A model generated the notes under the pieces. It ran no database searches. It saw only the letters and a list, made by a program, of their open reading frames with translations, and was not told where the DNA came from. Below are positions 19,429-26,401 of a stretch of DNA of 30,019 nt, piece after piece. How positions within the stretch are numbered: the stretch's first letter is position 1; the number at the start of each line of letters is the position of its first letter. The stretch is taken from IMG/VR virus record IMGVR_UViG_3300013126_000161, positions 1-30,019 of that record. One strand, written 5' to 3'. A program made the position numbers and the translations under genes. The stretch comes from a virus.

Positions 19429-19486
19429 CGTTAATAAATGTTAAATTTCATTAATCATTAACATGACAATTTAACATTTATTAACG
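19429..19486. repeat. Perfect 19-bp inverted repeat upstream of the resolvase gene
   Basis: The left arm (cgttaataaatgttaaatt, 19429-19447) and the right arm (aatttaacatttattaacg, 19468-19486) are exact reverse complements, separated by a 20-nt loop. The right arm ends 16 nt before the ATG at 19503. In RNA it would form a long AU stem in the leader of the resolvase message. In DNA it could be a binding site for a dimeric protein. There is no T-tract after it, so a classical rho-independent terminator is less likely. It lies at the boundary between the late structural/lysis block and the replication block. Confidence 0.7.
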
Positions 19487-23360: not shown

Positions 23361-24734
23361 ATGCAGTGGGAATTATCAGAAGATACTAAGGTTTTAATTT
23401 TAAGATCTGCTACATCTATTGAAATAGACCAAACTAATATGTACTTTACGAGGGAAGCGGCAAATGCGAAATGGGATCCTCGTGTAAAAAAGGGATATTG
23501 GGATGGCAAAATATCATACTTTAAATCAAACAAATACTTACCATCAGGACTTTGGTATGAATTAATTGAAATGGGAAAGAAATTTGATTTTCCTATTAAG
23601 ATTTCTGGTATTGAAAGAAAGTTTGATTTCGAAGTGGATAAAGAGGAGTTTCAACAATGGGTTGCGACAAAATGGTCAGGCGCAAAAAAAGTACCAAGAC
23701 AATACCAAATAGATGCAGCATTTAACATTATTAAGTATAAATCATCTCTTTCGGAATTAGCAACATCTGCAGGTAAAACATTAATAACTTATATGGTTAT
23801 TGCATATTTGTTAGAACAAAAAAAATCTAAGAAGATATTAATGATTGTTCCTTCTGTTGATTTAGTTGTACAATCATCAGATGACTTCTATCAATATAAT
23901 GAAGAGTCTTTAAAACTTAAATTGGATATACAACAAATTTATGCAGGATCTATTATTAGGTCAGGTTGTCCTATCGTCATAGGTACATTTCAATCATTAG
24001 TTAAGAAAAATGAAGACTATTTTGATATGTTTGATACTGTTATATGTGACGAATCACACAGATGTTCGGCCAGTTCCGTTAAGGCTGTGCTATCAAAATG
24101 TCTAAATGCTGATAGGAAATTTGGTTTAACTGGTACTATTCCTAAACCAAATACCCTTGATTATTTGACTATTATGAGTCAAATGGGTCCAGTTATTACT
24201 TCAATAAAGGCAGATTATTTGCAGAATGAAGGATATATTTCAAAATGCGAAGTAATTTCTTTAGAAATGTCATATGCCGATAATGATGTAAGGGAAGCAT
24301 TTAGTACATTATTTAAACGTTCGTCTGAAGATAGAAAAAAGCTTTTAACATTAGAACAAAATTTTGCAAATTCCGATAATATGCGACTCGAGTTTATTAC
24401 AGATGTTATTTGTAAGTCTGTAAAAAACGCACTTGTTCTGTTTTATCATATAGATTATGGTAATAAGATAATGAACTTATTAAAGAAAAAATCAAATAAG
24501 AAAATTGTTTACATTGATGGTTCTGTTAATAAAAACATAAGAGAATACAATAAAGATGTAATGGAGGACGATAATTATACTGATTATTTAGAATTCTGTG
24601 CAGATGGTGTTAAGTATGAAATACCATACGAGAATAAAGTTAAATTGATGGATGGGAGAATGGTTTCGGCCAAGGACTTACAAGAGGGTGATGATATAGA
24701 TATTGATTATTTAAAGAAAAATATTATTAATTAA
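23361..24734 (+). CDS. uvsW: UvsW-like helicase, N-terminal part, with a foreign C-terminal tail
   Basis: The 457-aa product carries the UvsW N-terminal domain (KWDPRVKKGYWDGKISYF) and SF2 helicase motifs: Walker A ATSAGKT (134-140), DESH (230-233), LTGT (256-259), and the start of RecA domain 2 (ALVLFYHIDYGNKIMNLL, then IDGSVNKNIREYNKDVMEDD, up to about residue 405). The frame then leaves UvsW: residues 406-457 have no counterpart in UvsW and resemble part of a Hint module (KVKLMDGRMVSAKDLQEGDD). Motifs V and VI are found about 1.5 kb downstream (26050-26380). UvsW unwinds branched DNA and R-loops in T4. As encoded here this fragment lacks the arginine-finger motif VI and should be inactive alone unless the halves are rejoined or associate. 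Confidence 0.88.
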   Translation: MQWELSEDTKVLILRSATSIEIDQTNMYFTREAANAKWDPRVKKGYWDGKISYFKSNKYLPSGLWYELIEMGKKFDFPIKISGIERKFDFEVDKEEFQQWVATKWSGAKKVPRQYQIDAAFNIIKYKSSLSELATSAGKTLITYMVIAYLLEQKKSKKILMIVPSVDLVVQSSDDFYQYNEESLKLKLDIQQIYAGSIIRSGCPIVIGTFQSLVKKNEDYFDMFDTVICDESHRCSASSVKAVLSKCLNADRKFGLTGTIPKPNTLDYLTIMSQMGPVITSIKADYLQNEGYISKCEVISLEMSYADNDVREAFSTLFKRSSEDRKKLLTLEQNFANSDNMRLEFITDVICKSVKNALVLFYHIDYGNKIMNLLKKKSNKKIVYIDGSVNKNIREYNKDVMEDDNYTDYLEFCADGVKYEIPYENKVKLMDGRMVSAKDLQEGDDIDIDYLKKNIIN

Positions 24735-24765
24735 CTGGGGTCTCTATTAATAAAATGTAAAATTT

Positions 24766-24780
24766 TTAAAGATATATAAA
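24766..24780 (+). repeat. 15-nt AT-rich element upstream of the HNH ORF
   Basis: TTAAAGATATATAAA lies 12 nt before the ATG at 24793 and occurs identically at 26377-26391, 10 nt before the ATG at 26402. The TATATAAA core recalls the T4-type late -10 element (TATAAATA), so a phage promoter is possible; a translation-leader role is the alternative. Confidence 0.4.
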
Positions 24781-24792
24781 ATAAATAAAATC

Positions 24793-25350
24793 ATGAAAGA
24801 TTTTATTTTAAATTCTTTATTATCAAAACATGTTATTTGTGATGATTACAATTCACTTGATTTATATTTAGATTTATGTACTAATTACAATGAAGTAATT
24901 TCTGATGATGATTATTGTGAGATTCATCATATTTTACCAAGAGTATTTTTTCCTGAATATACAAATGAATCTTGGAATAAAGTTGTATTAAAATATGAAG
25001 ATCATAAGAAGGCACATTCTCTTCTATTTGACTCATTTAATATAAGAACGTACCAAAAACCTTTGTTATTCTTTAGGTATAAAAAATCAAAGAAACAAAT
25101 ATCAAATGCAGCTAGGCGAGGCTGGGTTAATTTAAGAAATGATAAGTCTAAATATGATTTATTTGTAAGTAAACGTTCTGCTCATATGAAAACGTTAACA
25201 TCGGATGAACAACATAGACGTGCAATGTGCAGATGGGATAATTTAACTGAAGATGAAAAAATAAATCTTCGTAATGAGATAGGTATAGCATCAAGATTAT
25301 TTTTATCTAATCCTATTATTCGTAAAAAATGTCAGACAGTCAACAAATAA
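24793..25350 (+). CDS. HNH homing endonuclease, catalytic part
   Basis: The protein has 185 aa. The HNH motif is EIHHILPR (His45/His46), then W-N62-K-V-V-L, then EDH71KKAH75, as in phage homing endonucleases of the HNH/NUMOD group. After about residue 105 it becomes a chain of basic helical repeats (LTSDEQHRRAMCRWDNL, LTEDEKINLRNEIG) typical of NUMOD3-like DNA-binding helices. It stops at 25350, shortly after an A6 run (25324-25329). The downstream ORF continues the same kind of repeat in the -1 frame, so this is probably the front half of one enzyme of about 410 aa. It would cut uninterrupted uvsW alleles if homing is active. Confidence 0.8.
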   Translation: MKDFILNSLLSKHVICDDYNSLDLYLDLCTNYNEVISDDDYCEIHHILPRVFFPEYTNESWNKVVLKYEDHKKAHSLLFDSFNIRTYQKPLLFFRYKKSKKQISNAARRGWVNLRNDKSKYDLFVSKRSAHMKTLTSDEQHRRAMCRWDNLTEDEKINLRNEIGIASRLFLSNPIIRKKCQTVNK

Positions 25351-26012
25351 GATTTAGCGATGTTAAAAATAGGGAAAAAGTATCAATGTGCAATAAGTTA
25401 AGATATGAAAAAATGACACCTGATGAGAGAAAATCTTTTTCAGATAAAATGAGCGTTGTTAATAAAGACCCAAACAAACGTAAATCTGCTGGTGCAGCAA
25501 TTGCAAAAAAATGGGAAGACCCTATTTTTTTGGAGAAAATGAAAAACCGAAAAAATAAAAAATCTACATACGAAGCAATATCACCAAATGGCGACTATCA
25601 TATAGTTGATGGTTTAGATGAATTGTGTAATAAATTTTTACTTAATCTAACACTTGTTAATAAATATAAAGATACCGGTGAACCTATCAAATGTGATACG
25701 AAAAGAAAGGGCGTATCGGATGAATTGTTAAATAGCGTTGGTTGGATTGTTAATACGTTAACCAATCGACATATTATACATAAAACAACTAAACGTAATC
25801 CTACATATAATTTAATATCACCTATTGGTGAAAAGTTTGAATGTATTGGTCTTAAAAACTTATGTTTGACATTTAACTTTAATGGGTATTTTGTTAATAA
25901 ATTTAAAAATACTGGTTCACCAATATCCTGCAATAAATACAAAGACACAACAACGATGCCTGATAATATAAAGAATATGTTAGGTTGGTTAATATACGAA
26001 ATAAAAAATTAA
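25329..26012 (+). CDS. HNH homing endonuclease, DNA-binding part (frame-shifted continuation)
   Basis: The 227-aa frame begins with more NUMOD3-like repeats (MTPDERKSFSDKM, DPNKRKSAGAAIAKKWEDP) that continue those of the preceding ORF. Two copies of an approximately 75-residue domain follow: 'YEAISPNGDYHIVDGLDELC ... VNKYKDTGEPI ... VGWIV' and 'YNLISPIGEKFECIGLKNLC ... VNKFKNTGSPI ... LGWLI', the target-recognition modules seen at the C-termini of phage HNH enzymes. The nominal ATG at 25329 uses the last A of the A6 run; the frame has a stop at 25323. A -1 slip on AAA AAA would join both frames in register. Translation as a separate protein from 25329 is the alternative. Confidence 0.7.
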   Translation: MSDSQQIRFSDVKNREKVSMCNKLRYEKMTPDERKSFSDKMSVVNKDPNKRKSAGAAIAKKWEDPIFLEKMKNRKNKKSTYEAISPNGDYHIVDGLDELCNKFLLNLTLVNKYKDTGEPIKCDTKRKGVSDELLNSVGWIVNTLTNRHIIHKTTKRNPTYNLISPIGEKFECIGLKNLCLTFNFNGYFVNKFKNTGSPISCNKYKDTTTMPDNIKNMLGWLIYEIKN

Positions 26013-26016
26013 TATA

Positions 26017-26085
26017 ATGGCTAAAATTTCAAATTTAAAAAATGTAAAAAAGTACGAGGCGACTATTATGGTCGCCTCGTACTGA
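26017..26085 (+). CDS. 22-codon ORF carrying the uvsW motif V strand
   Basis: ATG 26017 opens a frame ending KKYEATIMVASY then TGA (26083-26085). The last part (ATIMVASY) is what UvsW needs directly before GTMSTG (T4 UvsW has IIIVASYG at this point). It is therefore a piece of uvsW in another frame from the 26099 ORF, not an independent gene by content. Its codons gag, gcg, gtc, gcc, tcg, tac are GC-rich and unlike the A/T-ending codons of the rest of the window. Whether translation starts at 26017 is unknown; the segment may instead be read by splicing or recoding. Confidence 0.5.
   Translation: MAKISNLKNVKKYEATIMVASY
26051..26083 (+). other. 13-bp GC-rich perfect hairpin at the uvsW junction
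   Basis: agtacgaggcgac (26051-26063) and gtcgcctcgtact (26071-26083) are exact reverse complements around a 7-nt loop (tattatg). Eight of 13 pairs are G-C, the strongest hairpin seen in this AT-rich window. The right arm encodes Val-Ala-Ser-Tyr of helicase motif V and ends at the T of the in-frame TGA. No T-tract follows, so it is not a standard terminator. Confidence 0.85.
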
Positions 26086-26098
26086 GGTTGACGGAACG

Positions 26099-26380
26099 AT
26101 GTCAACGGGAGTGTCTATAAATAACATACATAATTTATATTTAATAGAATCATTTAAATCAGATGTTATTATTAGGCAATCTATAGGTAGAGGGTTAAGA
26201 ATGCATAAACTTAAAGATAAACTTTGGATTTTTGATTTTGTCGATGATTTAAGAATTAAAGGATTTAAGAATTATTTGTACAAACATGGAGAAGCGCGTA
26301 GGGTAATATATGATGAACAAAAATTTCCTTACAATATAAAGAAAGTTGATTTAACAAAAATTTACAAGCATAGAACTTAA
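26099..26380 (+). CDS. uvsW: UvsW-like helicase, C-terminal part (motifs V-VI)
   Basis: The 93-aa frame carries the end of motif V and motif VI: (GT)MSTGVSINNIHNLYLIES, then IIRQSIGRGLRMHKLKDKLW with the conserved QxxGRxxR, then DFVDDLR and NYLYKHGEARRVIYDEQKFP, which matches the UvsW C-terminus. The frame is open upstream to 26048, but the residues directly before GTM in this frame (RTEVD) are not those expected; the expected VASY lies 10 nt upstream in another frame. If translated alone, ATG 26099 is the first Met. It would lack ATP-binding motifs and could work only in trans with, or joined to, the N-terminal part. Confidence 0.85.
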   Translation: MSTGVSINNIHNLYLIESFKSDVIIRQSIGRGLRMHKLKDKLWIFDFVDDLRIKGFKNYLYKHGEARRVIYDEQKFPYNIKKVDLTKIYKHRT

Positions 26381-26391
26381 AGATATATAAA
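26377..26391 (+). repeat. Second copy of the 15-nt TTAAAGATATATAAA element
   Basis: Identical to 24766-24780. It overlaps the uvsW stop codon and lies 10 nt before the ATG at 26402. The two copies bracket the HNH ORFs plus the uvsW C-terminal part. Confidence 0.4.
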
Positions 26392-26401
26392 TTAAAATTA
26401 T

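Follow-up and report, generated by a model that had tools for sequence, protein, structure and literature searches.

The stretch of DNA analysed here (the window) comprises the 30,019 nucleotides of IMG/VR record IMGVR_UViG_3300013126_000161, a fragment of a T4-like virus with a GC content of 27%. It contains a gene for a UvsW-like helicase that is present in separate pieces, with the following features.

23361–24575, plus strand: N-half of the UvsW-like helicase, native part, residues 1–405, motifs I to IV region, ending with MEDDN
24576–24734, plus strand: C-terminal tail of the N-half, about 50 amino acids, stop codon TAA at 24732–24734
24793–25350, plus strand: HNH homing endonuclease, N-terminal part (phrog_12434 HNH endonuclease, 2.5e-18; 45% identical to the intact enzyme of the related locus L161)
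25329–26012, plus strand: C-terminal part of the same homing endonuclease in the -1 frame (37% identity, E 8e-30, to residues 178–319 of the L161 enzyme)
26017–26085, plus strand: leader ORF of 22 codons, MAKISNLKNVKKYEATIMVASY, stop codon UGA at 26083–26085
26051–26083, plus strand: GC-rich hairpin, 13 bp perfect and 15 bp when folded; the VASY codons make up its 3' arm, whose last base is the U of UGA
26080–26085, plus strand: proposed shift or take-off site UAC-UGA (UAY-UGA in 22 of 23 loci)
26083–26092, plus strand: gap UGAGGUUGAC, 10 nt, which places the C-half in the +1 frame
26087–26106, plus strand: second small hairpin of 7 bp (GUUGACG/UGUCAAC) in the window fold, with its 5' arm inside the gap
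26093–26380, plus strand: UvsW C-half frame (GTMSTG..., motifs V and VI; phrog_9690 DNA helicase, 1.1e-23)

The N-half matches PF21241 UvsW_N (3e-8), ResIII (2.4e-22) and phrog_16 DNA helicase (2e-54), and single-sequence searches with the window's own helicase halves retrieved no close relatives. The native end of the N-half was set at N405 by alignment with intact homologues, in about 120 of which the native spacing fits MEDDN-ATIMVASYGTMSTG exactly. VASY and GTM are therefore true neighbours in the helicase and the gene is broken twice, once between N405 and A, where the cassette is located, and once between Y and G, at the 10-nt gap. The leader ORF starts 4 nt past the endonuclease stop, its residues from about ATIM onward are the native helicase strand, and VASY, encoded by GTC GCC TCG TAC (26071–26082), is its end. 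TGA follows directly, and deletion of 26083–26092 (TGAGGTTGAC) joins VASY to GGA ACG ATG TCA ACG GGA, that is, GTMSTG. An initial annotation made from the letters alone had described precisely this arrangement of VASY, TGA and a 10-nt gap whose removal rejoins motif V, and its coordinates proved exact when the sequence was re-read; it had overlooked that the N-half is a separate piece, ending with residue 405 and the tail, and that VASY is part of a 22-codon ORF with a start of its own at 26017. The possibility that UGA is read as an amino acid was rejected, because the zero frame meets a second UGA and then continues into unrelated sequence.

The codons that precede the gap form the hairpin. 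Its perfect 13-bp stem is made up of AGTACGAGGCGAC and GTCGCCTCGTACT (26051–26063 and 26071–26083), and RNA folding predicts 15 bp with a 3-nt loop. The fold of 26040–26115 reaches -34.6 kcal/mol (z = -7.0), a stability attained by none of 200 shuffled sequences. The window holds no other perfect 13-bp stem with a loop of 3–8 nt, and Markov-random windows contained a mean of 0.015 such stems, none of them equally GC-rich. The perfect GC-rich stem pointed out in the initial annotation is thus borne out as the sole example in the window. The segment 26051–26110 has a GC content of 53% as compared to 27% for the window, and the codons that form the hairpin are rare in this genome, in which GTC, GCC, TCG, ACG and GTG each account for 3–6% of the codons for their amino acid. 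The second, small hairpin is absent from the related loci that were looked at.

The initial annotation had also proposed a comparison with related phages, and this yielded 22 further IMG/VR loci with the same anatomy, so that 23 distinct junctions are available in all. A search with a degenerate DNA pattern representing a conserved motif of the C-half retrieved 120 stretches, nearly all of them from UvsW, one of which (L161) has the anatomy of the window, with tail, HNH enzyme, a 22-codon leader ending in VASY, hairpin and a 4-nt gap, TGAC, at the same site. A search with the endonuclease added L219, L220, L221, L223 and L224; together with L161, all six endonuclease-associated loci with a C-half in view are interrupted, and UGA was not a search criterion for this set. 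Patterns of the form TAY-TGA-gap-GT..TG raised the total to 23, and the uniformity of Tyr-UGA is therefore partly ascertained by the search itself, the endonuclease-derived set and a looser pattern (any codon, TAA or TGA, within GCCTC), in which the true uvsW loci were all TAY-TGA, being less biased. A scan of genome contigs for the TGAC form found nothing, and about 8 Mb of fetched sequence, inspected on both strands, contained no convincing hairpin-UGA layout outside uvsW.

The picture established by this comparison is that uvsW falls into two parts immediately ahead of motif V, an N-half extended by a tail of about 50 amino acids and a C-half equipped with a short leader, usually with an HNH homing endonuclease between them. 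In this phage and its 22 relatives, UGA and a short gap moreover interrupt the C-half directly past VASY, the preceding codons forming a conserved hairpin. The leaders comprise 18–26 codons and share a common end in all 23 loci, and the stop, always UGA, directly follows the take-off codon in every one of them. The C-halves fall into 20 clusters with less than 85% identity and diverge down to 32% identity. The endonuclease is missing in six loci, where just 6–141 nt lie between the halves; the interruption thus outlives the enzyme. In L311 (8606–9506) and L319 (7804–8848), the uvsW halves are separated by an unrelated, repetitive gene of structural type, and a repetitive gene of this type is also located between them in L224 (3042–3884).

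The hairpin, too, is a property of the whole family. It is present in all 23 loci and its 3' arm ends within a few nucleotides of the last sense codon. Because MAFFT misaligns the hairpins, pairs were counted on the actual folds and not in a fixed register; 272 of 278 pairs are formed, as opposed to 247 ± 4 after an exchange of arms among the loci, and compensatory changes are numerous. Folding energies at the junction range from -15 to -27 kcal/mol in the split loci, while the mean for 160 intact genes is -7.3 kcal/mol, and intact uvsW genes have no comparable structure at this position.

These findings bear on the trivial explanation that UGA and gap are a disabling mutation in a dead gene or an error of assembly. 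Identical junctions recur in independent samples, the L303 type in five contigs and the L310 type in three, which rules out an assembly error for the recurring junctions (that of the window is represented by one contig). The C-half is under purifying selection as judged from pN/pS values of 0.12–0.25 in four clades, in which synonymous sites are saturated (pS 0.74–0.83). A defect of the window gene could be seen as in line with its endonuclease, whose frameshift at an A6 run may mean that this copy of the cassette is decaying; the selection on the C-half across 23 loci and three gap lengths of one frame make a dead gene or faulty assembly extremely improbable. The endonuclease frames themselves shift near the A6 run at 25324–25329 (region 25321–25350), the L161 homologue being a single ORF, and the break may be due to decay of the gene, to slippage or to a sequencing error in the homopolymer.

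If the C-half is a functional protein, the question arises of how its translation begins. In the window, no ATG, GTG or TTG is found in the C-frame between the preceding stop and GGA at 26093. The same holds for the region before motif V in 11 of the 23 loci, and in 19 of the 23 this region lacks ATG. Where downstream ATG codons exist in the C-frame, they lie 34–79 residues in, beyond motif V, with the exception of the window, where an ATG (MSTG..., 26099) is situated 13 nt past UGA. For the leader, the clade with the best sampling gives a pN/pS of 0.17 over codons 1–12, and the signal is weaker in the smaller clades; judged by these sequence comparisons, the leader is conserved as a protein, both in its start and in its sequence.

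One could imagine that the two are never joined, that is, that ribosomes terminate at UGA and re-initiate, leader peptide and C-half remain separate and three pieces assemble. The ATG of the window would suit this idea, as would the loci with UAU, in which UAUUGA offers an in-frame AUU. No such AUU exists in the loci with UAC, the post-stop ATG is confined to the window, and with almost half of the loci (11/23) devoid of any ATG, GTG or TTG before motif V we regard separate translation as unlikely. A start at MSTG was likewise dismissed as a general solution because the other loci do not have this ATG.

A further argument against separate polypeptides comes from cultivated phages. A tblastn search with the tails led to 58 Vibrio and 19 Dickeya phage records. 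The Vibrio phages K476 and D506 have no endonuclease between the two halves, which share an ATGA overlap, and encode the C-half in a single ORF (MKPTKVVHKEGAILLASYGCLSTG...). A single ORF (MKPTKINKAEDITVLATYGTFSTG...) likewise encodes the C-half of the Dickeya phages LIMEstone1, PP35 and RC-2014, in which an HNH enzyme separates the halves. K476, D506 and LIMEstone1 carry the same tail and an MKPTK leader, and have neither hairpin nor UGA. As leader and C-half form one ORF in these phages, the C-half truly begins with the leader; hairpin, UGA and gap have been added to it and must be crossed if the same protein is to be obtained. The authors of the LIMEstone1 report call the uvsW interruption an intron, and the passages considered here mention neither tail nor leader (PMC3296691).

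The way in which the addition is crossed is constrained by the gaps. Ten loci have a 4-nt gap, TGAC, and ten a 7-nt gap consisting of TGAG and one codon (TAY in four cases, GAC in three, AAC in two and GTC in one); the remaining gaps measure 10 nt (window), 11 nt (L223) and 17 nt (L383). The C-half accordingly is in the +1 frame in 21 of the 23 loci, L223 and L383 being the exceptions. Take-off and landing codons match only in five, namely L297, L303, L333 and L424 (TAY-TGAG-TAY) and L223 (TCG...TCG).

We propose, with a probability of about 0.72, that leader and C-half of this split UvsW, a DNA-repair helicase, are joined by programmed recoding by the ribosome. The estimate refers to ribosomal recoding of either kind and overlaps with that for the bypass discussed below, which differs only in whether the gap is read. 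Recoding of one kind or the other is clearly the most likely explanation for the junctions, and a +1 shift appears somewhat ahead of a hop. The initial annotation had suggested recoding in the neighbourhood of a homing endonuclease, with T4 gene 60 as the precedent. The core of this idea is strongly supported by the 22 additional loci, the covarying hairpin, the invariant UGA, the selected C-half and the uninterrupted controls; its strict form, a 10-nt hop between matched codons, is not supported, given gaps of 4, 7, 10, 11 or 17 nt and matching codons in 5 of 23 loci. The annotation itself had counted the mismatch of TAC and GAC against simple bypassing; it holds for the window and extends to 18 of the 23 loci. 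In view of the varied gaps, the prevalence of the +1 frame and the scarcity of matched codons, a +1 frameshift through the gap is no less likely than a codon-matched hop. Gaps of 4, 7 and 10 nt are whole codons apart in length, which suggests that the gap is read in the +1 frame, giving VASY-D-GT, VASY-Ex-GT or VASY-EVD-GT.

In such a scheme, translation would begin at the leader AUG (26017); the ribosome would unwind the hairpin and then pause once the P site holds UAC with its tRNA-Tyr and the A site holds UGA. By then, the 5' arm of the hairpin would be outside the ribosome, and the 3' arm could re-pair with it on leaving the exit channel. This re-pairing would pull mRNA out, the ribosome would move forward by one nucleotide, and decoding would resume at GAG (GAC in the 4-nt class), producing VASY-EVD-GTMSTG in the case of the window. 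N-half and C-half would then assemble into a working helicase. NNN-UGA-C is a known context for +1 shifts, also without re-pairing, and the 5' stem-loop of T4, which forms as mRNA leaves the exit channel, is considered the motor of forward movement (PMC5009743); by analogy, the position of the hairpin described here fits the T4 gene 60 motor model. Three points speak against a +1 shift: tRNA-Tyr cannot re-pair well after slipping (UAC to ACU, in general UAY to AYU), the shift would insert 1–3 residues in motif V, and plain +1 frameshifting cannot explain L223 and L383.

The latter two loci and the five with matched codons are explained better by a short bypass, a stop hop, in which peptidyl-tRNA-Tyr would leave UAY and land on the codon before GGN, yielding exactly VASY-GTMSTG, while the ribosome slides across UGA and gap without decoding them. 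This would cover all 23 loci, including those with 11- and 17-nt gaps, it is compatible with Tyr codons on both sides in four loci, the stop right after take-off together with the 5' hairpin corresponds to the layout of T4 gene 60, and a hairpin is possible over the L383 gap. A hop, however, needs no frame, yet gaps of 4, 7 and 10 nt keep one, the codons are unmatched in the large majority of loci including the window, and a 4-nt hop hardly differs from a +1 shift. Overall, bypassing of this kind, sliding included, seems possible though doubtful.

Removal of the gap at the level of RNA, by hairpin-guided micro-splicing or as an intron, had been raised as another option in the initial annotation and gained no positive evidence. 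The conserved hairpin at the gap could mark a cleavage site; on the other hand, searches of Rfam found no group I or II intron or catalytic RNA core, cassette boundary and gap are at separate places, such that a single splice cannot restore the gene, and the gaps vary and share no splice signal beyond UGA. Moreover, we know of no bacterial machinery that removes 4–17 nt of mRNA. We consider this option very improbable. A P1-like pairing noticed by eye at about 24566–24590 had hinted at a group I intron, an idea that was discarded since Rfam gave no match and one splice cannot mend two breaks.

The tail, which is present on all 18 N-halves visible in split loci, invites a comparison with inteins. 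It had no match among Pfam and PDB profiles. An alignment by hhalign with the intein N-fragment (IntN) from the motif II split of L161 gave 95.2% (E 2.6e-8) and covers only the last third of IntN. The tail looks like the block-B end of IntN and is devoid of Cys1 and block A; going by this resemblance, it may have been left behind by a split intein. In an AlphaFold model of the N-half (pLDDT 80), which was not counted as evidence, strands are predicted in the tail. A split intein acting at the junction studied here was rejected, because in the absence of Cys1 and block A and of a C-intein in the leader protein splicing cannot occur. The motif II split itself (DEC^H; L161, 9158–10600, also in L134 and L098) is a second break of uvsW, so that this gene is in three pieces in L161. 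It harbours a complete split intein, confirmed by Pfam, and a free-standing endonuclease of another type.

Among the systems described in open PMC papers, the nearest is bypassing in T4 gene 60/mobA. In both cases, a gene is split by an HNH homing endonuclease, and the downstream piece carries an interruption near its start (after 46 codons in T4, 18–26 here), with a stop directly after the take-off codon and an upstream stem-loop as the proposed forward motor (PMC5009743; PMC3014915). For the 50-nt interruption in T4, a protective function against the endonuclease has been proposed (PMC5009743; PMC3014915). By analogy, an interruption with recoded codons at a putative endonuclease target in motif V might shield the carrier genome from its own enzyme, a role that is borrowed from T4 and has to be weighed against the loci that keep the interruption without endonuclease. 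Unlike T4 gene 60, the gene affected is uvsW, the gap measures 4–17 instead of 50 nt and mostly entails the +1 frame, codons are unmatched in most loci and the hairpin abuts the take-off codon. A take-off stem-loop of the T4 type, with take-off codon and stop, is not seen in the window fold and is possible in L383 only, matched take-off and landing codons are lacking in the window, and leaders of this length leave no room for a T4-type nascent-peptide signal, which acts from about 25–30 residues upstream.

With +1 frameshifting at NNN-UGA, as in release factor 2 and antizyme, the junctions share a sense codon followed by UGA in a UGA-C or UGA-G context and a downstream ORF predominantly in +1 (PMC5009743). 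They differ in that the stimulator would be a 5' hairpin and not an internal Shine-Dalgarno sequence or a 3' pseudoknot, in that P-site re-pairing in +1 as for release factor 2 is not available to the Tyr anticodon, and in that a mobile-element scar would be crossed, with no known regulatory role. Two ORFs for one enzyme with an HNH endonuclease between them also occur in Aeh1 nrdA/mobE and LIMEstone1 uvsW/I-LimI, the latter with the same tail and leader; the split uvsW genes of LIMEstone1 and the Vibrio phages, unlike the family of the window, need no recoding. Genes fractured by split inteins likewise have a free-standing endonuclease between their halves and an IntN whose end is related to the tail, and differ from the loci studied here by possessing Cys1, block A and a C-intein.

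To our knowledge, T4 gene 60 was for decades the sole established phage case of ribosomes crossing an inserted gap. Whether other genes of T4-like phages are bypassed has been posed as an open question in a review (PMC3014915). Tentatively, and with less conviction than for recoding as such, the loci could be a second natural family of phage ribosome bypassing, in which a 5' hairpin at UAY-UGA drives ribosomes over 4–17 undecoded nucleotides as the immunity part of a mobile, uvsW-splitting homing-endonuclease cassette. They provide a natural series at one site, with 23 loci, gaps of 4–17 nt, codons that match in some loci and not in others, and cultivated phages as uninterrupted controls. This series permits a direct test of the role of a hairpin that refolds behind the ribosome, and the loci would offer a second case of a homing endonuclease travelling with a recoding site.

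Some minor observations concern the surroundings of these genes. In L222 (3204–4004), an ORF after the uvsW N-half ends with KKVEMNGTLTTGVSVNFIYRI, a scrap of uvsW motif V on an unrelated protein, and adjoins an endonuclease of the same family as that of the window. The window itself contains a perfect inverted repeat of 19 bp, its arms 20 nt apart, in an intergenic position (19429–19486) and a repeated element, AAAGATATATAAA, at 24765–24785 and 26378–26396, just 5' of the endonuclease and of the ORF that follows uvsW; this element is perhaps a late promoter.
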